A DNA stretch of 56,203 bases. Source: Candidatus Omnitrophota bacterium. Lineage in GTDB: Bacteria > Omnitrophota > Gorgyraeia > Gygaellales > Profunditerraquicolaceae. The position numbers were made by a program, and so were the translations under genes. The stretch covers positions 1 to 56,203 of the forward strand of contig JAUYDL010000054.1 in the NCBI GenBank assembly GCA_030691865.1, given 5' to 3'. How positions within the stretch are numbered: position 1 is the first letter of the stretch; each line of letters begins with the position of its first letter. Positions 592 through 29,760 of the stretch are shown in pieces. A model generated the notes under the pieces. The model saw only the letters and a program-made list of their open reading frames with translations, had not been told where the DNA came from and did not search any database.

Positions 592-2043
592 ATGCCTTTT
601 AAAATAATTAAATTAACCGCTATTGTTTTTGCTATATCTTTAATTACCTTTCCTGTTTTTGCCGCACAAAGCAATAATCCCAATCCCGAAGAACCAAAAT
701 ACAGCCCAAAAAATCTGCAAGATAAAGACGCGATGCAGGCAGAAATGGATTTTTATGCCGGCAATGACCATGAGGCTGAGCTAATCTTTACGGGTCTAAT
801 AGCAAAAAAAGACCATGATATCGCGTTGTGGAACAATCAATTGGGTTCTTTATATTTGACGCAGGGCAAGTTTAAAGAAGCCAAAGACGCATTTATGGAG
901 GCCTATGTTTTAATGAATGATATTGCTGCCTTTAAAAACCTGGAATTAAACTCGGTGGGGCTAATTAGCTCTGAGATGACCAAAGGATATAAAGGCGATC
1001 CTTATGAGAAGGTGTTTAACTCTTTTTATGTCGGAATACTGCTTTATGCGGATAACGACCTGGAAAACGCGTTGGCGGCTTTTAAAAATGGTATTCTGTG
1101 CGATTCTGATGTTACAGGCAAACTTTATAAAAGCGATGTGGCATTAATGTATTTAATGGCCACGCGCCTGGAGTTACTGCAAAAAAATCAATCTATGGCC
1201 GATGATTTTTTTAAACAGGCCACTGAAGCCTTTTATCTTTCCCATCCCGATAATCGACTGTTGGTTTCTCAAAAACAGGGCTTATTAGATGATTTAGATA
1301 AAAAACAAAAAGAGCTGCTGGAGAAAGAAACTAAGGCAAATATTAAGCTAGAGCAAGTAATTAACACCCTCAAGGCTGAGATTGGCAAACTTGAGGCGGA
1401 TATTAAATTAGCCGGGGACAAGATAGAAGAAAATAACCGTAAGATCGCTATTAATAATTTAAAAGATTTCATTAATCCTGATAATAATACCTTAATCTGC
1501 GTTGAGACCGGCAGGGGCCCCCTTAAATATCAAATCGGCACCTATGGGGAAAAAACAATTTTTACTATCAAGCCGTACCCAGCTGTGGGTTTTAGCGTTA
1601 CAATTGATAATTTTACGCAAATTAAAGCGGAGAGCTTTCTTAAACATAATGATGTTTTTTATCAAGCCTCTACCCGCGGCGGAAGAGTTATGGATAGCAT
1701 GTTAAAAGGCAAGGCGGAATTTAAACAAACTACCGCGGATGTTTCAAACGTGCTTTCTACTATGTCACAGGCTTATGATCCTTATGGGGTATTTTCTCTT
1801 CTGAGCTTCGCTACAGGGGCAGTTAGTAATGCCACTAATCCTTATGCTGACGCTCGGCATTGGAGCCTGCTGCCTGCGGAGTTGCAAATAATTTCTTTGC
1901 GTTTGGCCCCCGGAACGCATCAGTTACAGATTAACGCCTATGATTCTACGGGCAAAACAATTGAAAGCTCCAAGATAAATGTCCAAATTACGAATAACTC
2001 TAACAATGTCATTTTTAAACGTTTTCGTGGAGTAGAATCTTAA
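592..2043 (+). CDS. TPR-containing exported protein, COG3014-like
   Basis: Signal peptide, TPR-like helices (AELIFTGLIAKKDHDIALWNNQLGSLYLTQGKFKEAKDAF), coiled coil; adjacent to LpoB- and YcfL-like genes. Confidence 0.65.
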   Translation: MPFKIIKLTAIVFAISLITFPVFAAQSNNPNPEEPKYSPKNLQDKDAMQAEMDFYAGNDHEAELIFTGLIAKKDHDIALWNNQLGSLYLTQGKFKEAKDAFMEAYVLMNDIAAFKNLELNSVGLISSEMTKGYKGDPYEKVFNSFYVGILLYADNDLENALAAFKNGILCDSDVTGKLYKSDVALMYLMATRLELLQKNQSMADDFFKQATEAFYLSHPDNRLLVSQKQGLLDDLDKKQKELLEKETKANIKLEQVINTLKAEIGKLEADIKLAGDKIEENNRKIAINNLKDFINPDNNTLICVETGRGPLKYQIGTYGEKTIFTIKPYPAVGFSVTIDNFTQIKAESFLKHNDVFYQASTRGGRVMDSMLKGKAEFKQTTADVSNVLSTMSQAYDPYGVFSLLSFATGAVSNATNPYADARHWSLLPAELQIISLRLAPGTHQLQINAYDSTGKTIESSKINVQITNNSNNVIFKRFRGVES

Positions 2044-2044
2044 A

Positions 2045-2611
2045 ATGAAAAATTTACTTTTTATAATATTTTTGACATTTTCGCTTTCTGGATGTGTTAG
2101 TGTAAATCCTTATGTTTTAACCAAAGGGCAAACTTCGCTTGATTTAACCAATAATCGCGGGGTGGCCTTGTTTACTTTAAAAGCGGATAATTCGGGAGGC
2201 GGGCGCCTTTTTTTATCAAGTTTTATGGCGCGTGAAGTTAATCAGTATAAACTTTATAATACTTTAGGAGTATTTTCTCTACCGCTCGGCTCAGAAAACT
2301 ATTCTGCGACTGATAATTTATATTTTTGTTCAGTAGTCCTAAGCAGCGGAATCTACCGTCTTGATTCGTTTAATGGAATGGTTAATCCATTTTTTGCTAT
2401 GCCAGCCGCGCTTAAAATTGGTAAGATTTTTGATATTTATCCTAATAAAATAAACTATCTTGGCCGTTTAAATTTTAGTAACTTAGATACTAAGTCAGTT
2501 TTTACATCCTTAAGCAAGATAGAGGATACCTCTGAGCAAGATATATTAAAATTTAAAGAAATCTTTCCGATATTAAAAGATAGGCAAATTAGCAAGGATT
2601 CATTTTATTAG
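2045..2611 (+). CDS. Putative lipoprotein
   Basis: Signal peptide with lipobox LSGC. Confidence 0.6.
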   Translation: MKNLLFIIFLTFSLSGCVSVNPYVLTKGQTSLDLTNNRGVALFTLKADNSGGGRLFLSSFMAREVNQYKLYNTLGVFSLPLGSENYSATDNLYFCSVVLSSGIYRLDSFNGMVNPFFAMPAALKIGKIFDIYPNKINYLGRLNFSNLDTKSVFTSLSKIEDTSEQDILKFKEIFPILKDRQISKDSFY

Positions 2612-2623
2612 AGAGGAGTAGTA

Positions 2624-3214
2624 ATGAAAAATCTCATATTTATTTGTATGTTTTGTTTATGTTTAGCTGGATGCGCTACAGTAGAAACTTCTTATACTAA
2701 GACTGTGCCTTTAGATGAGGATGATGGGCTGGGAGGAACAGGAATAGAAGCCACAGATATCCGTACTGTTTCCAGGAAAATGGCAGAATCAATTTTGAAC
2801 GTCCCGCAAATAATGAATGCCCAGGGGTCGCCAATAATCGCGCTGCTTCCAGTAAAAAATTCAACACGTTTTATAATTAATAAGGATATCTTTACTAAAA
2901 AAATCCGCATTCAGCTTAACCAGAACGCTCAGGGTAAAATGACATTTCTTGCCCGTGACCGCATTGATGATATTTTAAAAGAAAGGCAGTCTAAGCGTGA
3001 TGGATTAGTCGGTTCAAGCAAGAGCGGGGATTTAAAGGGAGTGGATTTTTATTTGACCGGCGAGTTGATGGGGTTAAGTAAGGCCAACCAGGGAGACAGG
3101 TCAGATTATATCTCGATGTCCTTTCAGCTGATTGACGCGGAGACATCAGAAATTATTTGGGAAAATGAATACGAAGTTAAACGCGTGGGTACATCCGGGG
3201 TTGTTTATCAATAA
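2624..3214 (+). CDS. lpoB: Penicillin-binding protein activator LpoB-like lipoprotein
   Basis: Lipobox LAGC; ESILNVPQIMNAQGSPIIALLPVKNSTRFIINKDIF...LTGELMGL...YISMSFQLIDAETSEIIWENEYEVKR resembles LpoB. Confidence 0.8.
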   Translation: MKNLIFICMFCLCLAGCATVETSYTKTVPLDEDDGLGGTGIEATDIRTVSRKMAESILNVPQIMNAQGSPIIALLPVKNSTRFIINKDIFTKKIRIQLNQNAQGKMTFLARDRIDDILKERQSKRDGLVGSSKSGDLKGVDFYLTGELMGLSKANQGDRSDYISMSFQLIDAETSEIIWENEYEVKRVGTSGVVYQ

Positions 3215-3224
3215 TACTTATCAA

Positions 3225-3276
3225 GACACCCGGCGCTGATTGGAATTGCGCCGGTGTTGTCCTAGTGGACAAGGAG
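3225..3276 (+). repeat. Tandem-hairpin intercistronic element, copy a (lpoB-ycfL)
   Basis: GACACCCGGCGC-TGATTGGAATT-GCGCCGGTG then TTGTCC-TAGT-GGACAA then GGAG. Confidence 0.85.
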
Positions 3277-3285
3277 ATAACTAAT

Positions 3286-3693
3286 ATGCGTAAAAAAATA
3301 TTATTTTTGTTTTTAGCGGTTATGCTTGCCGGTTGCGCGGGGGTTCCGGCTAAGGGAATTAAGCCGATAAAAGAGTCTCAACTTTATGAAGAAACGGAGA
3401 CCTTTGTCTATCTGAGCAAGGGAATGAATAAGCGGCTTCTCTTGTCAGATCAGTTAGTATCGGCAACTGAAGATGGGCGGCTGGTGGTAAAGGCTAAATT
3501 ATTTAATAAGTTATCTGAAAATTTGCGAGTGCAGTTTCAAACTATATTTAAAGATAAAGACGGCTATCCTACCGGGGACCAAACGAATTGGGAGCTGGTG
3601 GTTATTCCGCACAATGCCTATTATTATTATGAGGTTAAGGCAATGAATACTCAGGCGGCCAAGTATGTTACGCGTTGCCGCTATGCTGAATAG
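3286..3693 (+). CDS. YcfL-like (DUF1425) lipoprotein
   Basis: MRKKILFLFLAVMLAGCAG lipobox; beta-rich C-terminus; follows LpoB as in known ycfL/lpoB neighbourhoods. Start moved from 3265 to 3286. Confidence 0.7.
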   Translation: MRKKILFLFLAVMLAGCAGVPAKGIKPIKESQLYEETETFVYLSKGMNKRLLLSDQLVSATEDGRLVVKAKLFNKLSENLRVQFQTIFKDKDGYPTGDQTNWELVVIPHNAYYYYEVKAMNTQAAKYVTRCRYAE

Positions 3694-3792
3694 ACACCCC
3701 GCGCTAAGTAGGCACCCGGCGCTTATTAGAATTGCGCCGGTATCCGCCACGTGGCGGAGAATTGCGCGGGTGTTGTCTAGGTAAACAAGGAG
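3692..3792 (+). repeat. Tandem-hairpin intercistronic element, copy b, nested double copy
   Basis: Outer TAGACACCCCGCGC...GCGCGGGTGTTGTCTAGGTAAACAAGGAG containing an inner GGCACCCGGCGCTTATTAGAATTGCGCCGGTATCCGCCACGTGGCGGA. Confidence 0.85.
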
Positions 3793-3800
3793 AGGTGGTT

Positions 3801-5426
3801 ATGATTATAAAAATTTTTATTTTTTTGTTAAGTTTTAGTTTTTTGGCCTTAAATAGTTTTAATGCCTTCGCGCAAGATCAGGCAAAGAAAATCTATACTT
3901 ACGAACAAAGCAGTATTAGTGGCAATGTCATTGAAAAAGACTTAAAAATTAAAGCCGCGGTTTTTGTATCAGAAAATAACTTAAAATTTAAAGATAGCCT
4001 GTTTAATCCTCCAGTTGATGAGCTTTTAGAAACAAAAATAATTTCTGTTGATAAGGCTGATATTAAGATCGATAACAGTCAGAAACCGCCGCAAAAAAAA
4101 GCAGACGCACAGTTAATTACCGGACTCCTGACCAATGCTTTGCGTGAAAGCGGAAAATTCGCTATTATTGAACGGCAGGATATTAATGCTATTTTACGGG
4201 AGGCGGAGTTTAGTAATTCTAAATGGGTTAATTCTGAACAGGCAAATAAAATAGGTAATATTTATGGGGTTAAATATATTGTCATTGCAAATTTACTTAA
4301 GAGCGAGGCAGGAGAAAGAGTTGCTGCCAACAATTACGTTTTAGCTTTGCGCCTGTGCGAAGTGGAAACCGGGAATATATCCGCTACAGGACAGGGTGAT
4401 GGCATAACAATAAAGGATGTTGTTGTCAATGCCGTGAAAAACTTTTCTTCCAAGATTAACAGCCAGCCCTGGATTACGCGTATTATTAAGATGGAAGAAG
4501 GTTTTGTGTATCTTGGCGCAGGTAGCGATGAGGGGTTAAAAAACAAGGATGTATTGGAAGTTTACAAGGTAAAAAACAAGATTATTGATCCGGTAACTGG
4601 CAAAGTTTTAGGCACAGATAAGGCCAAAGTAGGCAGCCTTGAGATTGTTGAAATTTTAAGCTCTGATTTGTCAAAAGCCAAGGTTTTGGAGTCTTCAGAA
4701 CCGATTACCGCGGATTTTATCGTACAAGCAGGCATTACGAGTAAAGCCGGAAACGATCTAATGTCAAGATGGAAGAATATTTATGGTGAGACCTCTTCGG
4801 ATAAGCCTAAAACTGAAGTATCTGAGAGTTCCGTTTCTGCTTCTGATAGTTCTGCGACAAATATGAGTATGTCAATTGAAGGGTTAGTGCAAATTGCCAG
4901 TCCCTCAATAGTTATGATTACTACTGTCAGTAACAGTGGCGGTGCTTTGGGCAGCGGTTTTCTTATCAGTTCCGATGGAACCATTGTTACCAATTACCAT
5001 GTTATTAAGGGTGCGGAAGGCTTGGGCGTAAAATTTGCGCAGGATAAAGAGTTAATTACCAATGTAAGCGTAATAAAGACTGATGCTGTGCGCGATATAG
5101 CTTTGATTAAAGTTAATACACCGGTAAATGCTACTCCTTTGCCTCTGGGTGATTCGGAACAAATAGCTGTAGGCGAGCGCGTGGTTGCTATTGGTAATCC
5201 AAAAGGGCTGGCGAACACAGTATCGGATGGATTAATCAGCGCGGTGCGCGATTCCGGCGGCGTAAAGCAAATTCAGATTAGCGTTCCTATTTCGCACGGC
5301 TCAAGCGGAGGAGCATTAATCAATATGCGCGGTGAAGTCATTGGAATTACTTCATCCGGTTATGATGAGGCGCAAAATTTAAATTTTGCTATACCTATAA
5401 ATTACGTTAAAGAGTATCTGCAATAG
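3801..5426 (+). CDS. CsgG-like domain fused to a trypsin-like serine protease domain, exported
   Basis: Signal peptide MIIKIFIFLLSFSFLALNSFNAFAQ; CsgG-like region (LLTNALRESGKFAIIERQDINAILREAEF...YIVIANLLK); HtrA-like triad motifs TNYHV, RDIALIKV, GSSGGAL. Confidence 0.85.
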   Translation: MIIKIFIFLLSFSFLALNSFNAFAQDQAKKIYTYEQSSISGNVIEKDLKIKAAVFVSENNLKFKDSLFNPPVDELLETKIISVDKADIKIDNSQKPPQKKADAQLITGLLTNALRESGKFAIIERQDINAILREAEFSNSKWVNSEQANKIGNIYGVKYIVIANLLKSEAGERVAANNYVLALRLCEVETGNISATGQGDGITIKDVVVNAVKNFSSKINSQPWITRIIKMEEGFVYLGAGSDEGLKNKDVLEVYKVKNKIIDPVTGKVLGTDKAKVGSLEIVEILSSDLSKAKVLESSEPITADFIVQAGITSKAGNDLMSRWKNIYGETSSDKPKTEVSESSVSASDSSATNMSMSIEGLVQIASPSIVMITTVSNSGGALGSGFLISSDGTIVTNYHVIKGAEGLGVKFAQDKELITNVSVIKTDAVRDIALIKVNTPVNATPLPLGDSEQIAVGERVVAIGNPKGLANTVSDGLISAVRDSGGVKQIQISVPISHGSSGGALINMRGEVIGITSSGYDEAQNLNFAIPINYVKEYLQ

Positions 5427-5559: not shown

Positions 5560-7104
5560 ATGCTAAATCTTGCCATTATCTACCATATGCACCAGCCGTA
5601 TTACAAGAACCTCATCACTGGGGAGAGTGTCCTTCCCTGGGTAAGGCTGCATGGGGTCAAAGATTATCTGGATATGGTGCTCATCCTAGAGAAATTCCCC
5701 AAAATGAAGCTGACTTTCAATGTCGTGCCGTCATTATTCGAACAAATTGAAGATTATAATAACACCGGGCTAAAGGATAAATACCTGCAGCTATCTAGAA
5801 AACCAGCTGAGCAGCTAACCAAAACCGATAAAGAATTTATCCTGCAGAATTTCTTCTCTATCAATAAGGATAAGGTCATTGCTTTTTCTCCGCGCTACTA
5901 CCAGCTGTATTTTAAGAAACAATCCGGCCAGGAATTTAATCTCGCCGATTACCTTGACCTGCAGGTCTGCTTTAATCTTTACTGGATTGATCCGTCTTTT
6001 AGGAAGAATATCCCGGAATTAAAGAAGGTAGTGGACAAAGAAAGATTTTTTACTGAGGAGGATAAACAAATCGTTTTAAGCCAGCAGCTGGAAATTTTAA
6101 AAGGAATAATTCCGGCCTATAAACTAGCGCAAAATAATCAACAGGTTGAAATCAGCGTAACGCCTTACTATCATCCGATCTTACCCTTACTTTATGATAC
6201 CAATATCGCCAAAAAGGCAAATAAAAAAACTGTCCTACCTAAAGAAGGGTTTAATTATCCCCTGGATGCCAAATATCAGATTGATAGCGCAATAGAATTT
6301 TATAAGCAAAGATTTAATAATGCGCCACTGGGCATGTGGCCATCTGAAGAGGGGGTAAGCGAACATATCTTGCCTTATATTATTGAATCCGGAATAAAAT
6401 GGATTGTCACTGATGAAGCAATTTTATTTAAATCTTTAAAACTAAAAAAACGCGACACCAAACTACTTTACCAGCCGCACCTCTTAAAAAGAAAAGAGGG
6501 CCAGCTGAATATTGTTTTTCGCGATCGCAATCTTTCAGACTTGATTAGCTTTGTTTACCATAAGATGAAAGAGGTGGATGCGGTAAATAATTTTATGACG
6601 CACTTAGAAAATATCAACAAAACCTTTAAGGGTAAAGATATTTTAGTCACCATTGCCTTAGATGGAGAGAACGCCTGGGAGTTTTATCGCAATGACGGAC
6701 ATGATTTTCTGGAATTATTCTATCAGCGCATTAGTCAGTCAGATTTTGTAAAAACTACTACGGTAAGTGAGTATTTAAAACTTAACCCGGCCAAATCAGA
6801 AATAAAACGTTTGAGCGCAGGCTCCTGGATTTACGGACAATTCGGAAAATGGATTGGTAACTGCCATAAAGTAAAAGCCTGGGAATGGCTGGCGCAGGCG
6901 CGCAAAGCAATTGGCGAAACTAAAAACCCTCCTGACTTGGCCTGGAAACAAATGTACATTTTAGAGGGCAGTGATTGGTTCTGGTGGGCAGGGGAAGACC
7001 CGGATGGTTCATTTGACCGCTTGTTTAGACTGCATTTAACTAACTTTTATCAGCTAATTAAACAAGAGCCTCCGGCATATCTTGCTAAGCCCTTAACCCC
7101 CTAG
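5560..7104 (+). CDS. Glycoside hydrolase family 57 (alpha-amylase/alpha-mannosidase-like)
   Basis: LNLAIIYHMHQPYYKN; MKLTFNVVPSLFEQIEDY; MWPSEEGVSEHILPYIIESGIKWIVTDEAIL; LDGENAWEFY. Confidence 0.93.
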   Translation: MLNLAIIYHMHQPYYKNLITGESVLPWVRLHGVKDYLDMVLILEKFPKMKLTFNVVPSLFEQIEDYNNTGLKDKYLQLSRKPAEQLTKTDKEFILQNFFSINKDKVIAFSPRYYQLYFKKQSGQEFNLADYLDLQVCFNLYWIDPSFRKNIPELKKVVDKERFFTEEDKQIVLSQQLEILKGIIPAYKLAQNNQQVEISVTPYYHPILPLLYDTNIAKKANKKTVLPKEGFNYPLDAKYQIDSAIEFYKQRFNNAPLGMWPSEEGVSEHILPYIIESGIKWIVTDEAILFKSLKLKKRDTKLLYQPHLLKRKEGQLNIVFRDRNLSDLISFVYHKMKEVDAVNNFMTHLENINKTFKGKDILVTIALDGENAWEFYRNDGHDFLELFYQRISQSDFVKTTTVSEYLKLNPAKSEIKRLSAGSWIYGQFGKWIGNCHKVKAWEWLAQARKAIGETKNPPDLAWKQMYILEGSDWFWWAGEDPDGSFDRLFRLHLTNFYQLIKQEPPAYLAKPLTP

Positions 7105-7207: not shown

Positions 7208-7238
7208 TTGACATCGATAGGGTTTTATGCTATATAAT
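7208..7238 (+). promoter_or_regulatory. Sigma70-like promoter
   Basis: TTGACA ... TATATAAT with 17-19 nt spacing. Confidence 0.75.
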
Positions 7239-7316: not shown

Positions 7317-7889
7317 GTGAATAAGAAAGAAATTTACGAGCATCTGGCGAATATTTATCTGGATGCCTCTTTTAAATCTTCAAAGAAAAGAAGCAAAATA
7401 AGATCTTATCCTCAAGCGGTGCAAGGCCTGATGCTCGTTGGCGCCATACTGGTTTTAGGATTAGGCAGCTTTGCTACTTATTCCCATCTCCATAACCGTA
7501 ATCAACCCGGACAGATTGCCTTATTTTTATATCAGGATACGGTAAAAATTAATTTTAATTTTGACGCGGCCACAAAAGAAATTTTTTTCTTAAACCTCAA
7601 ACAGTTAAATTTGTCCAACTATAAAACTTTGGCTTTTACGGTAAGGAAAACTAACCCTAAAGATATAATTTCATTGCGCGTAGAGTTTACTAACCGCTTT
7701 AACGAAAGATCCGAAATTTACATCAAAGATATCTCCAATAAATGGATCGACCATAAAATAAATCTGAGCCGTTTCGGCCGGATGGAATACTGGACCCAAA
7801 TGAAAGAATTAGCTTTTAGTATTGAGAAGTGGAATGCCAGGGAGAAATCAGGAATTGTTTATCTGGATAATATAAGAATTTTAAAATAG
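7317..7889 (+). CDS. Membrane-anchored protein with a CBM11/CIA30-like beta-sandwich domain
   Basis: One TM segment (AVQGLMLVGAILVLGLGSFATY); C-terminal YKTLAFTVRK...LRVEFTNRFNERSEIYIKDI...WIDHKINLSRF...MKELAFSIEKW...GIVYLDNIRIL; GTG start. Confidence 0.55.
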   Translation: MNKKEIYEHLANIYLDASFKSSKKRSKIRSYPQAVQGLMLVGAILVLGLGSFATYSHLHNRNQPGQIALFLYQDTVKINFNFDAATKEIFFLNLKQLNLSNYKTLAFTVRKTNPKDIISLRVEFTNRFNERSEIYIKDISNKWIDHKINLSRFGRMEYWTQMKELAFSIEKWNAREKSGIVYLDNIRILK

Positions 7890-7902
7890 GAGGAGAACCT
7901 AA

Positions 7903-8997
7903 ATGCGCATTATAACCATCTCTAATCAAAAGGGCGGCTGCGGTAAAACCACAACAAGCATAAATTTAGCAGCGGCACTGGCAACTAATAACCGCAAGGT
8001 TCTGCTTATTGATCTTGACCCGCAGGCGCATGCCACCAGCGGCTTGGACATAAAAGCGGATTTGAGCATTTATAACGTCCTCTCTAAAATTACCAATAAA
8101 AAATGTAAACTTGAAGAAATTATTCAGAATCTTGGCGAGAATTTTGATATCGCGCCTTCCAGTATTGTTTTAAGCACACTGGAGCAGGAATTAAGCGGAG
8201 AGATTGGCAGGGAGTCCCGGCTCTGTGAAACTCTGGAAAATTTTAAAAACAATTACGACTATATTTTAATTGACTGTCCGCCAAATTTAGGAATCCTTAC
8301 CATTAACGCCATCCGGGCAGCTAATGAGATAATTATTCCGGTAGAGGCCAGCAGATTTTCCTTAGAAGGGGTAAGCCAACTCACCAGCATTATTAATTTG
8401 ATAGCGGAAAGATTAAATCATTGCGTGGAGTTCCGGATTCTGGTGGCTAACTTTGATTCCCGCCTCCAGCATTCATTTATCATGCTGGAAAAGATCAAAA
8501 ACGATTATAGAAATAAAATGTTTTCCAATATTATCCATGTAAATGTTAAATTAAAAGAAGCGCAGAACGCCGGCCTGCACATTCTGGTTTATGATAAATA
8601 CTGCCGCGGAGCAAAAGATTATTTCTCTCTTTCGCGGGAAATTATCACTCAGGAAAATACACCGGAACCCAGCCAGGCAGTAGAAAAAACTTTCCAGAAA
8701 CGCATGAAAGAAATTCTCAAGGAAGAGCTGCCCGGGTTAAATGAAGTTGTGCTTAGCGTTAAGGCCCCGGATGCCAAAGAAGTTTATCTGGCCGGAGAAT
8801 TCAACAACTGGAAACTCGATGAAAACAGCCGCATGGAACAAACTAACGGATGCTGGACTAAGCGCTTGAACTTAAACAATGGTAAATACCGTTACCGTTT
8901 TGTCATTGATGGAAACTGGTCTGAAGATCCGGCTAACCCGTTAACCCAATTAAATACTTACGGCACCTTGGATTCTTTACTGGAAGTTAACAAATAA
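7903..8997 (+). CDS. ParA/Soj-family ATPase fused to C-terminal CBM48/AMPK glycogen-binding domain
   Basis: Deviant Walker A SNQKGGCGKTTTSINLAAAL, LIDLDPQAHATSGL, LIDCPPNLGILTINAI; C-terminal VYLAGEFNNWKLDENSRM...WTKRLNLNNGKYRYRFVIDGNWSEDPAN. Confidence 0.93.
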   Translation: MRIITISNQKGGCGKTTTSINLAAALATNNRKVLLIDLDPQAHATSGLDIKADLSIYNVLSKITNKKCKLEEIIQNLGENFDIAPSSIVLSTLEQELSGEIGRESRLCETLENFKNNYDYILIDCPPNLGILTINAIRAANEIIIPVEASRFSLEGVSQLTSIINLIAERLNHCVEFRILVANFDSRLQHSFIMLEKIKNDYRNKMFSNIIHVNVKLKEAQNAGLHILVYDKYCRGAKDYFSLSREIITQENTPEPSQAVEKTFQKRMKEILKEELPGLNEVVLSVKAPDAKEVYLAGEFNNWKLDENSRMEQTNGCWTKRLNLNNGKYRYRFVIDGNWSEDPANPLTQLNTYGTLDSLLEVNK

Positions 8998-9003
8998 ATA
9001 CCT

Positions 9004-9330
9004 ATGGCTAACCCACAGGAAGAACAGCAGGTCCGCGAAGGCAAATTTTTTGCCATAATTTCGTATGTTTCTTTCCTTTGTATAATTACTTTAATCTTAA
9101 AGAAAGATAACAAGTTTGCCCTTTACCATGCCAAACAAGGACTAGTGCTATTTGTAATGGAAGTAGTGGCATTCATACTTTCAATTATTCCTTTTTTAGG
9201 CTGGTTAATTGGGATTTTTGGATATGCGTTATTCCTGTTGGTTTCTTTATGGGGGATCATGCAAGCTGCTCAGGGTATTAATAGTCGTATACCGATTGTA
9301 ACTGATATATCAGAGAGGGTTATTCTCTAA
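9004..9330 (+). CDS. DUF4870-like membrane protein
   Basis: EGKFFAIISYVSFLCIITLILKKDNKFALYHAKQGLVLF; two or more hydrophobic helices. Confidence 0.7.
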   Translation: MANPQEEQQVREGKFFAIISYVSFLCIITLILKKDNKFALYHAKQGLVLFVMEVVAFILSIIPFLGWLIGIFGYALFLLVSLWGIMQAAQGINSRIPIVTDISERVIL

Positions 9331-9396: not shown

Positions 9397-9780
9397 ATGG
9401 CTTTAAAAAAGAAAAGGAAGGTCAAAAAAGCGGCAAAAAAACCAGCAATTAAAAAAAAGGTTAGTAAAAATAAGCCAGCTTTAAAAAAGCAGTCCACAAT
9501 AAAAAAGCCGGCAATCAAAAAAGCTGCTAAAGTCGAAGGCAAACTCATCGGCGTAATCACGCATTATTTCCCTCATGTCCAAGCTGCAGTAATTAAATTA
9601 AAGGGCCCCTTAGCTAAGGGGGATACAGTAAAGATAAAGGGGCATACCACCGATATTACCCAAATTGTAACCTCCATACAGATTGACCGAGTAGATATCC
9701 AAACCGCCAAAAAAGGCGACGAAATCGGCCTGCAAGTCAGCTCCCGGGTAAGGCAACAAGATAAAGTTTACAAAATTTAG
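9397..9780 (+). CDS. Histone H1-like Lys/Ala/Pro-rich tail fused to EF-Tu domain II-like beta-barrel
   Basis: MALKKKRKVKKAAKKPAIKKKVSK... then GKLIGVITHYFPHVQAAVIKLKGPLAKGDTVKIKGHTTDITQIVTSIQID. Confidence 0.75.
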   Translation: MALKKKRKVKKAAKKPAIKKKVSKNKPALKKQSTIKKPAIKKAAKVEGKLIGVITHYFPHVQAAVIKLKGPLAKGDTVKIKGHTTDITQIVTSIQIDRVDIQTAKKGDEIGLQVSSRVRQQDKVYKI

Positions 9781-28459: not shown

Positions 28460-29296
28460 ATGTACTGCAAATACTACGGGCTAAAAGAACGCCCTTTTAA
28501 TGTTACCAGCGACCCGGCTTTCTTTTTTTCCAGCAAAAAACATAAAGAAGCTCTCTCCCATTTACTTTATGGAGTCAGCCAAAGAAAAGGGATTATTGTT
28601 TTAACCGGAGAAATCGGCACTGGTAAAACCACCATCTGCCGTTTTTTCCTGAACCAAGTTGGCAAAAACGTAAAAACCGCCTTTATTCTGAACCCTACCT
28701 TCTCTGAGATCCAATTGTTGAAATCAATCGTTAATGATTTCGGGATTAATTCTAACAATAAAACAAAATTAGACATAGTTTTGGAGTTAAATAATTTTCT
28801 CCTACGCGAATCCACCGCCGGAAATAATCTGGTGCTAATCATTGATGAGGCGCAAAATTTAGAGCCCAATTTACTTGAGCAGATCCGACTGCTTTCCAAC
28901 CTAGAAACAGAAAAGGATAAGCTCTTGCAGGTAATTTTAGTCGGACAACCGGAATTAAATACCCGGCTTAATTTATATGATTTAAGACAACTGCGGCAAA
29001 GAATTATGGTTAGATATCACATTACGCCGCTAGACAACGATGAAATCAAAGACTACATTAACTACCGCTTAAAGATTGCCAGGGCAGAGCATGGGTTAGA
29101 AGGCCAAATTGAATTTAGCGATGAAGCTATCGAAATGATCAGCCGCTTCTCCGGCGGTACGCCCAGATTAATTAATATGATTTGCGATCGGGCGCTTTTA
29201 GCCGGGTTTGTCAGTGAAACTAACCATATAGATTTTGGTATTATCGAAAGATGTATCGAAGAGCTGGACAGTTACTTTGTGAGTAAAAACGCATGA
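28460..29296 (+). CDS. ExeA/GspA-like AAA ATPase
   Basis: MYCKYYGLKERPFNVTSDPAFFFSSKKHKEALSHLLYGV; GEIGTGKTTICRFFL; LVLIIDEAQNL. Confidence 0.9.
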   Translation: MYCKYYGLKERPFNVTSDPAFFFSSKKHKEALSHLLYGVSQRKGIIVLTGEIGTGKTTICRFFLNQVGKNVKTAFILNPTFSEIQLLKSIVNDFGINSNNKTKLDIVLELNNFLLRESTAGNNLVLIIDEAQNLEPNLLEQIRLLSNLETEKDKLLQVILVGQPELNTRLNLYDLRQLRQRIMVRYHITPLDNDEIKDYINYRLKIARAEHGLEGQIEFSDEAIEMISRFSGGTPRLINMICDRALLAGFVSETNHIDFGIIERCIEELDSYFVSKNA

Positions 29297-29760
29297 GCAT
29301 CATTAATGAGGCATTAAAAAAAACCGAAGAGTACCTCCAAAAAAATGCCGCCAAAGATAACCTCCTGGCGCCTAAGCCCGCCGGAGCTAAACCATTCCTC
29401 CTTTATATTTTAATTTTATTGGCCGGGCTTTCGCTGGGCAACTTTATATTTAACCTGCTGAGCCATGAGCTCCAAACTACTCAAACGCAAAAGTTAAATG
29501 CTTTGCCTGTTATCCAAACTACAAATTCTCCCCCTGCAGCTGCCTTGCCGAGCCAACCACCGGAAGAAAAGAAACCCGCAGAACTCAACTTTGTTTTAAA
29601 CGGAATATTCTTCTCCGATAATGACGGCTACGCATTAGTCAATAACCAGATTGTAAGAGAGAATGATTACGTTGATGGAGCTAAGGTGGGTTTGATTACT
29701 ACCAATACTGTAGAACTAGATAACGCCGGCCAGAGGATTACTCTATCCACTCACAGGTAA
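29293..29760 (+). CDS. GspB-like general secretion protein
   Basis: Overlaps the exeA-like gene; MSIINEALKKTEEYL, TM helix, C-terminal LNGIFFSDNDGYALVNNQIVRENDYVDGAKVGLI. Confidence 0.7.
   Translation: MSIINEALKKTEEYLQKNAAKDNLLAPKPAGAKPFLLYILILLAGLSLGNFIFNLLSHELQTTQTQKLNALPVIQTTNSPPAAALPSQPPEEKKPAELNFVLNGIFFSDNDGYALVNNQIVRENDYVDGAKVGLITTNTVELDNAGQRITLSTHR

Follow-up and report, generated by a model that had tools for sequence, protein, structure and literature searches.

ParA/MinD ATPases place chromosomes, plasmids, carboxysomes, chemoreceptor clusters and flagella, and as far as the open-access literature searched shows, we know of no positioning system described for a storage polysaccharide. 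The locus analyzed here raises the question of whether such a system exists. In a Candidatus Omnitrophota MAG (1.22 Mb in 78 contigs, 91.7% complete), a ParA-type ATPase is joined to a glycogen-binding-type module (CBM48/AMPK1_CBM), and its gene follows that of a single-pass membrane protein (Table 1). The window refers to the whole stretch of DNA that was analyzed (56,203 nucleotides), and the fusion to the ParA-CBM protein. A first-pass annotation had stated that no characterized system of this kind was known, and the open-access literature searched likewise yielded no relevant description of a ParA with a CBM48 or glycogen-binding domain.

Organization of the locus

The membrane-protein gene and the fusion gene are separated by 13 nt, and AGGAGG precedes the start of the latter. 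The GH57 gene reported upstream is indeed present, and its nearest solved GH57 structure is 9jlq (1.3e-82). The promoter that had been called good is a more qualified case: both hexamers are perfect, but the spacer is 19 nt long, and because the promoter scan admits only spacers of 16–18 nt, the site is absent from its list. Gene neighborhoods were compared in 41 wide loci, one per genome, from the Omnitrophota class to which the window belongs (hereafter, own class). Upstream of GH57, relatives can carry an alginate-export porin; the window instead encodes a TPR protein, LpoB/CsgG-like lipoproteins and a trypsin-like protease at 592–5426. At 28460–29760, an ExeA-like AAA ATPase is followed by a small single-TM protein starting MSIINEALKK, another case of an ATPase paired with a protein that combines a TM helix with a short motif at its N-terminus.

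Table 1 Features of the ParA-CBM locus (window coordinates; loci counts refer to the 41 own-class loci).
Feature	Position	Strand	Details
GH57 alpha-glucan-type glycoside hydrolase	5560..7104	+	PF03065 1.1e-59
Promoter-like site	7208..7238	+	TTGACA-19 nt-TATAAT
Single-pass membrane partner protein	7317..7889	+	190 aa; AF2 pLDDT 86.7
Cytoplasmic N-terminal motif EIYEHLANIYLD, residues 5-16 of partner, then K/R-rich stretch	7329..7364	+	predicted ATPase-docking peptide
Partner transmembrane helix, residues 33-60	7413..7496	+	AF2 helix, hydrophobic, K/R-rich segment before it
Predicted periplasmic CBM11-like beta-sandwich, residues 68-189	7518..7883	+	Foldseek 1v0a 4.5e-8
ParA-CBM fusion CDS	7903..8997	+	364 aa; open reading frame verified
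ParA/Soj-type ATPase domain, residues 1-250 of fusion	7903..8652	+	AAA_31 1.2e-57, AF2/structure matches, invariant motifs
Linker, about residues 251-285, predicted helix 258-275	8653..8757	+	pLDDT 56-58 in residues 251-280
C-terminal CBM48/AMPK-type module, residues 286-363 of fusion	8758..8991	+	PF16561 53.5 bits
Small DUF4870-like membrane protein	9004..9330	+	PF09685 0.00022, under its cut-off; downstream of fusion in 22/41 loci
Lys-rich protein, C-terminal domain weakly like EF-Tu domain 2	9397..9780	+	neighbor in 28/41 loci

An intact ParA ATPase joined to a glycogen-binding-type module

The complete ParA/MinD motifs credited to the fusion are borne out: the deviant Walker A motif NQKGGCGKTT with its signature Lys10, together with Asp39 and Asp124, is invariant in an alignment of 44 relatives. 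In the Pfam profile search, the AAA_31 match spans residues 1–175. The AF2 model of the fusion (pLDDT 90.4) superimposes on the Soj/ParA structures 9a6n, 8ray and 2bek with a TM of 0.92–0.93 of the target, and the nearest solved structures to the front half are ParA/Soj proteins, with 8ray at 1.5e-52. For DNA binding, H. pylori ParA uses Lys199, 227, 230 and 247 (PMC11229316). At the candidate basic-patch positions of the fusion, R187 is kept in 43 of the 44 relatives and K216 is Lys or Arg in 36, being lost in some members from a second Omnitrophota class (hereafter, second class). The linker differs in length among relatives, and the whole protein varies from about 340 to 505 aa.

The C-terminal domain had been called CBM48-type, and profile searches agree, with both families well above their curated cut-offs: AMPK1_CBM (PF16561) matches residues 290–363 at 2.9e-14 and 53.5 bits against a cut-off of 26.8 bits, and the CBM_48 profile scores 28.5 bits against 22.4. 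Every protein in the 44-member cross-phylum alignment has matches to AAA_31 as well as to AMPK1_CBM (E <= 0.001 for the latter). In AMPK beta1, mutation of W100, K126 or W133 greatly lowers glycogen binding (PMC2642990). When the module is aligned to its nearest solved structure, rat AMPK beta1 (1z0n, 3.4e-12), these residues correspond to W303, R332 and W339, respectively. Both tryptophans are Trp in 44/44 sequences. The K126-equivalent position shows basic/polar conservation only (Arg in 25, Lys in 13 and Gln in 6 of the 44); it is Lys in all 19 second-class proteins, and Arg or Gln in most of the own class. Thus, of the sugar-binding Trp and Lys residues whose loss would have told against the module, the tryptophans are retained throughout and the lysine position stays basic or polar. 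The position of AMPK T148 is without conservation. Together with glucan-related neighbor genes, the sequence of the module favors an alpha-glucan as ligand, although this falls short of proof of binding.

Distribution and separation from chromosomal ParA

A full-length fusion is found in more than 100 of 384 Omnitrophota genomes, spread over many own-class families and present in the second class too, and in at least 55 of the 78 genomes of a phylum group around one Krumholzibacteriota genome. A scan of genome contigs recovered the same architecture in records labeled Krumholzibacteriota, Eisenbacteria (Eiseniibacteriota), Latescibacterota, Gemmatimonadales and Phycisphaerae (Planctomycetota), as well as in a partial record labeled Kuenenia; some of these loci belong to genomes also in the phylum set, so loci and genomes are not additive. 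Almost all fusion hits come from MAGs. The nearest relatives are Candidatus Omnitrophota MAGs; identity to the best of them is 87% in the C-terminal 189 residues and 92% for the alignment as a whole. An assembly artefact or chance fusion is refuted by this repetition of the architecture in over 100 independent genomes of several phyla; nothing was found in its favor, and its probability is negligible.

Could the fusion be an ordinary partition ParA, chromosomal or plasmid, with an incidental tail? Its sequence and fold are close to Soj. However, a tree of 75 ParA domains separates the 54 fusions from 17 Soj proteins and 4 ParAs of a third kind by a 100/100 branch, which is compatible with, but does not prove, a fusion that arose once and long ago. 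Furthermore, beside yidC and dnaA the window's genome has a gene for a canonical ParA (KGGVGKT), and the ParB gene (MERRALGKGLSALIPEK) comes immediately after it. The presence of this separate parAB in the same genome rules out the fusion as the chromosome segregator. No parB adjoins the fusion, and no plasmid or phage record covered 80% of the C-terminal query, which argues against a mobile-element origin. An ordinary partition ParA is therefore very improbable.

The ParAs of the third kind (KGGCGKT, without a CBM) occur in the second class, at L222:1912-2742, L228:1695-2597, L229:1718-2773 and L230:1813-2697. They come after a small HTH protein in L222 and L229, and in L222 and L230 precede a protein of ~580 aa starting with a GLSKKIPAIF motif. 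This clade is possibly another positioning system with a docking peptide of its own.

The membrane partner of the own class

In the AF2 model, the membrane protein consists of a helix (residues 3–24), the TM helix and a beta-sandwich. It had been described as a single-TM protein with a galactose-binding-like domain; there is indeed one TM helix, and the fold assignment was close, with CBM11-like being more exact. The nearest Foldseek matches of the sandwich are CBM11 (1v0a, TM about 0.5 of the target), CBM30, CBM28 and CBM8. The window protein matched no Pfam or NCBIfam family, and its relatives give weak, scattered Pfam matches to CBM_11 and CBM_17_28. Within the sandwich, N126, E130, W143, F167, W172 and N173 are at least 90% conserved. 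Because a K/R-rich stretch precedes the TM helix, the positive-inside rule suggests that the N-terminus is cytoplasmic and the sandwich periplasmic. The best-conserved region outside the sandwich is this N-terminus, [DE]IY[DE]HLAxxYL[DG] followed by Lys/Arg.

In 36 of the 41 own-class loci, the gene immediately before the fusion encodes the membrane protein. Among the five exceptions, the start of the membrane protein is interrupted by an N run in L065, a longer membrane protein bears the same N-terminal motif in L068 and L070, and a related motif is found on a downstream protein in L069; L071 stops at the contig edge and was left out of the evaluable loci. A motif-bearing neighbor thus accompanies the fusion in 40/40 evaluable own-class loci. 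The pairing, whose lack of conservation would have counted against a functional link, is conserved. None of the three outcomes that the first-pass annotation named as refuting its reading was observed.

A shared N-terminal motif on dissimilar partners

Partners of ParA/MinD ATPases bind the ATPase through a positively charged N-terminus, while the remainder serves the cargo (PMC10241942, PMC12204374); ParB likewise binds ParA through its N-terminus (PMC11229316, PMC12462528). In the second class, the gene next to the fusion encodes a soluble protein of 215–370 aa, mostly starting with a form of KLxRGLKDVSxLF, and a motif-bearing neighbor or variant was found in 17/20 loci. For the Krumholzibacteriota group, a protein starting ...LxDVSHLFLS or a close variant is encoded downstream of the fusion at about 15 of 20 loci. 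Two members of the soluble partner show weak CbiA/MinD matches; since these begin past the Walker A motif, the soluble partner probably belongs to degenerate MinD-like proteins. Aligned across phyla, the partners have almost nothing in common but the N-terminal peptide.

The core of this peptide, [ILV][AS]x[LIVTAM][YF][LFIM], is present in an adjacent co-directional gene at 74 of 97 fusion loci, compared with 18 of 905 other ORFs (2% background); the expression was picked after the sequences had been inspected, and the 97 loci include duplicate genomes and a few chance matches in TM helices (L118, L171, L174). In L069/L157 and L162 the motif reads KKLGKGLEDISYLF, close to the start of ParB (RALGKGLSALIPEK) of the same phylum. 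These observations support well that the neighbor is a genuine companion and partner of the fusion ATPase, and the N-terminal peptide is predicted from sequence to be a docking or ATPase-stimulating element. The partner role originally proposed for the membrane protein is strengthened for the own class, because the motif recurs on unrelated partners of the same ATPase family. As a universal partner, however, the membrane protein is ruled out: the second class and other phyla have a soluble downstream protein instead.

Gene neighborhoods and glycogen metabolism

GH57 adjoins the fusion upstream in 23/41 own-class loci, so the association noted in the window holds for part of the own class. The alginate-export-type porin is near the fusion in 33/41 of these loci and is missing from the window itself. 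With their conservation restricted to part of the own class, both GH57 and the porin are ruled out as obligatory components. Other alpha-glucan genes near the fusion include GH77 plus GH57/DUF3536 (L164), alpha-glucan phosphorylase (L051 and L245) and GlgA (L059). In the second class (L104–L123), the gene order is obg-proB-proA-nadD-CorC pair and then mraZ-rsmH-ftsL-ftsI of the division and wall (dcw) cluster, with the fusion gene placed between obg-proBA-nadD and the dcw genes.

Some of this context fits a different reading, which takes the C-terminal domain for an E-set protein-protein module that has lost sugar binding. The system would then position another cargo, for instance a machine of the envelope or of polysaccharide secretion, in the manner of BcsQ. 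The porin and the adjoining dcw cluster are consistent with it, as are BcsQ-type fold matches and a PF06564 match of the fusion that exceeds its cut-off. Yet the two sugar-stacking tryptophans are invariant, no polysaccharide synthase is conserved beside the gene pair, and the window has no porin, and we consider this reading improbable.

Glycogen synthesis itself is widespread: Omnitrophota MAGs have been reported to encode it (PMC8542988), and GlgA was found in 22/23 genomes tested and also in most genomes without the fusion. Because almost every genome of the phylum has GlgA, the correlation is uninformative, and the occurrence of the fusion does not follow that of glycogen synthesis. The window's own 91.7%-complete assembly has a glycogen synthase; glycogen phosphorylase was not found in it and is patchy in other genomes. 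Stand-alone AMPK1_CBM proteins (~100 aa) directly adjoin glycogen synthase in three second-class genomes (G005:C52 = L126:6957-7283, G020:C34 and G030:C36). The stand-alone AMPK1_CBM of the window's lineage (G000:C2:3784-4038) lies beside an LpxI-like gene and a lipid A gene cluster. Omnitrophota also have giant genes: in G094:C3, G216:C4, G079:C2 and G077:C5, open frames reach about 30,000 to 43,000 aa and include stretches that resemble glycosyltransferase-5 or phosphorylase.

A proposed system for placing glycogen

The occurrence of the ParA-CBM fusion with a conserved partner in several phyla suggests that storage glycogen is placed or sensed in the cell by a system not yet described. We tentatively favor placement, at somewhat less than an even chance: the gene pair would encode a spatial positioning system of the ParA/MinD type, dedicated to alpha-glucan, which distributes or partitions glycogen. 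By analogy with ParA/ParB and McdA/McdB, the ATP-bound dimer would sit on the nucleoid via its putative, mostly conserved basic patch (R187, K216), and the CBM48 module would hold glycogen or another alpha-glucan particle. The N-terminal peptide of the partner would then insert into the ATPase dimer and trigger ATP hydrolysis and release from DNA. In the own lineage, this switch-off may take place at the inner membrane, by a partner with a periplasmic CBM-like domain, and in other lineages it may fall to the soluble, probably degenerate MinD-like protein. Such a cycle could spread, partition or exclude glycogen relative to the nucleoid and envelope.

In known ParA-type systems the cargo carries the partner and not the ATPase, so the roles would here be partly reversed. 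We infer glycogen as the cargo and granule positioning as the outcome; a layout in which glycogen is the matrix and the membrane protein the cargo fits equally. The wider proposition, to be put more cautiously still, is a possible, hitherto undescribed cross-phylum class of ParA positioning system with intracellular glycogen as cargo or matrix, a glucan-binding ATPase, and interchangeable membrane or soluble activators that have a short N-terminal docking motif and little else in common.

The main rival is sensing, which suits the same sequence data. The CBM would sense alpha-glucan and tune the ATPase, whose ATP state the motif-bearing partner would relay to glucan enzymes or the envelope, with nothing being moved. 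In AMPK, the module acts as a regulatory sensor of glycogen (PMC2642990); the own-class partner crosses the membrane and has a CBM11-like domain at its end, and alpha-glucan enzyme genes are frequent neighbors in the own class. However, the ATPase is nearest to Soj/ParA rather than to signaling kinases and largely keeps the putative DNA-patch residues, and the soluble partners of other lineages are without an obvious output domain. Sensing is unlikely, though less so than the other alternatives weighed above.

If glycogen placement is correct, the division of glycogen between bacterial daughter cells becomes directly testable, in a family that most genomes of one phylum group possess and that is common in Omnitrophota. 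Likewise, the short motif which otherwise dissimilar partners have in common is a testable docking peptide and a handle for finding further partners.

Comparison with known systems

The closest counterparts of the ATPase are chromosomal ParA/Soj proteins (T. thermophilus Soj 2bej; H. pylori ParA 6iub and 8jmj; 8ray), with which it shares the fold, deviant Walker A motif, catalytic Asp and most of the putative basic-patch residues, as well as a neighbor with a ParB-style N-terminal peptide. It differs in its C-terminal CBM48, in having KGGC rather than KGGV, and in forming a distinct clade. Unlike chromosomal ParABS, it comes with no ParB or parS, and it coexists with the canonical parAB at yidC/dnaA. 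MinD ends in an amphipathic membrane-targeting helix, whereas the fusion ends in a CBM, and no minE adjoins it.

McdA/McdB, which positions carboxysomes and so serves a non-DNA cargo, similarly pairs a dedicated ParA-type ATPase with a partner that has a short basic N-terminal motif. However, the fusion has 22% identity to McdA and is not specifically related to it, its ATPase itself bears the putative cargo-binding module, and its partner is membrane-bound in the own lineage; no carboxysome genes were noticed in the fusion loci inspected. The cellulose-secretion ATPase BcsQ/BcsR is also ParA/MinD-like and linked to polysaccharide, but bcs genes are absent here and the fusion, which has its own carbohydrate module, is Soj-like rather than BcsQ-like.

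Among carbohydrate-binding proteins, CBM11/CBM30 modules (1v0a, 2c24) share the fold of the partner's predicted periplasmic domain at 14–16% identity, although the latter is membrane-anchored and has no attached enzyme. The AMPK beta subunit (PF16561/CBM48) has a homologous module with both glycogen-binding tryptophans; in the fusion, K126 is often replaced by Arg or Gln, and the module is joined to a ParA ATPase instead of a kinase scaffold.
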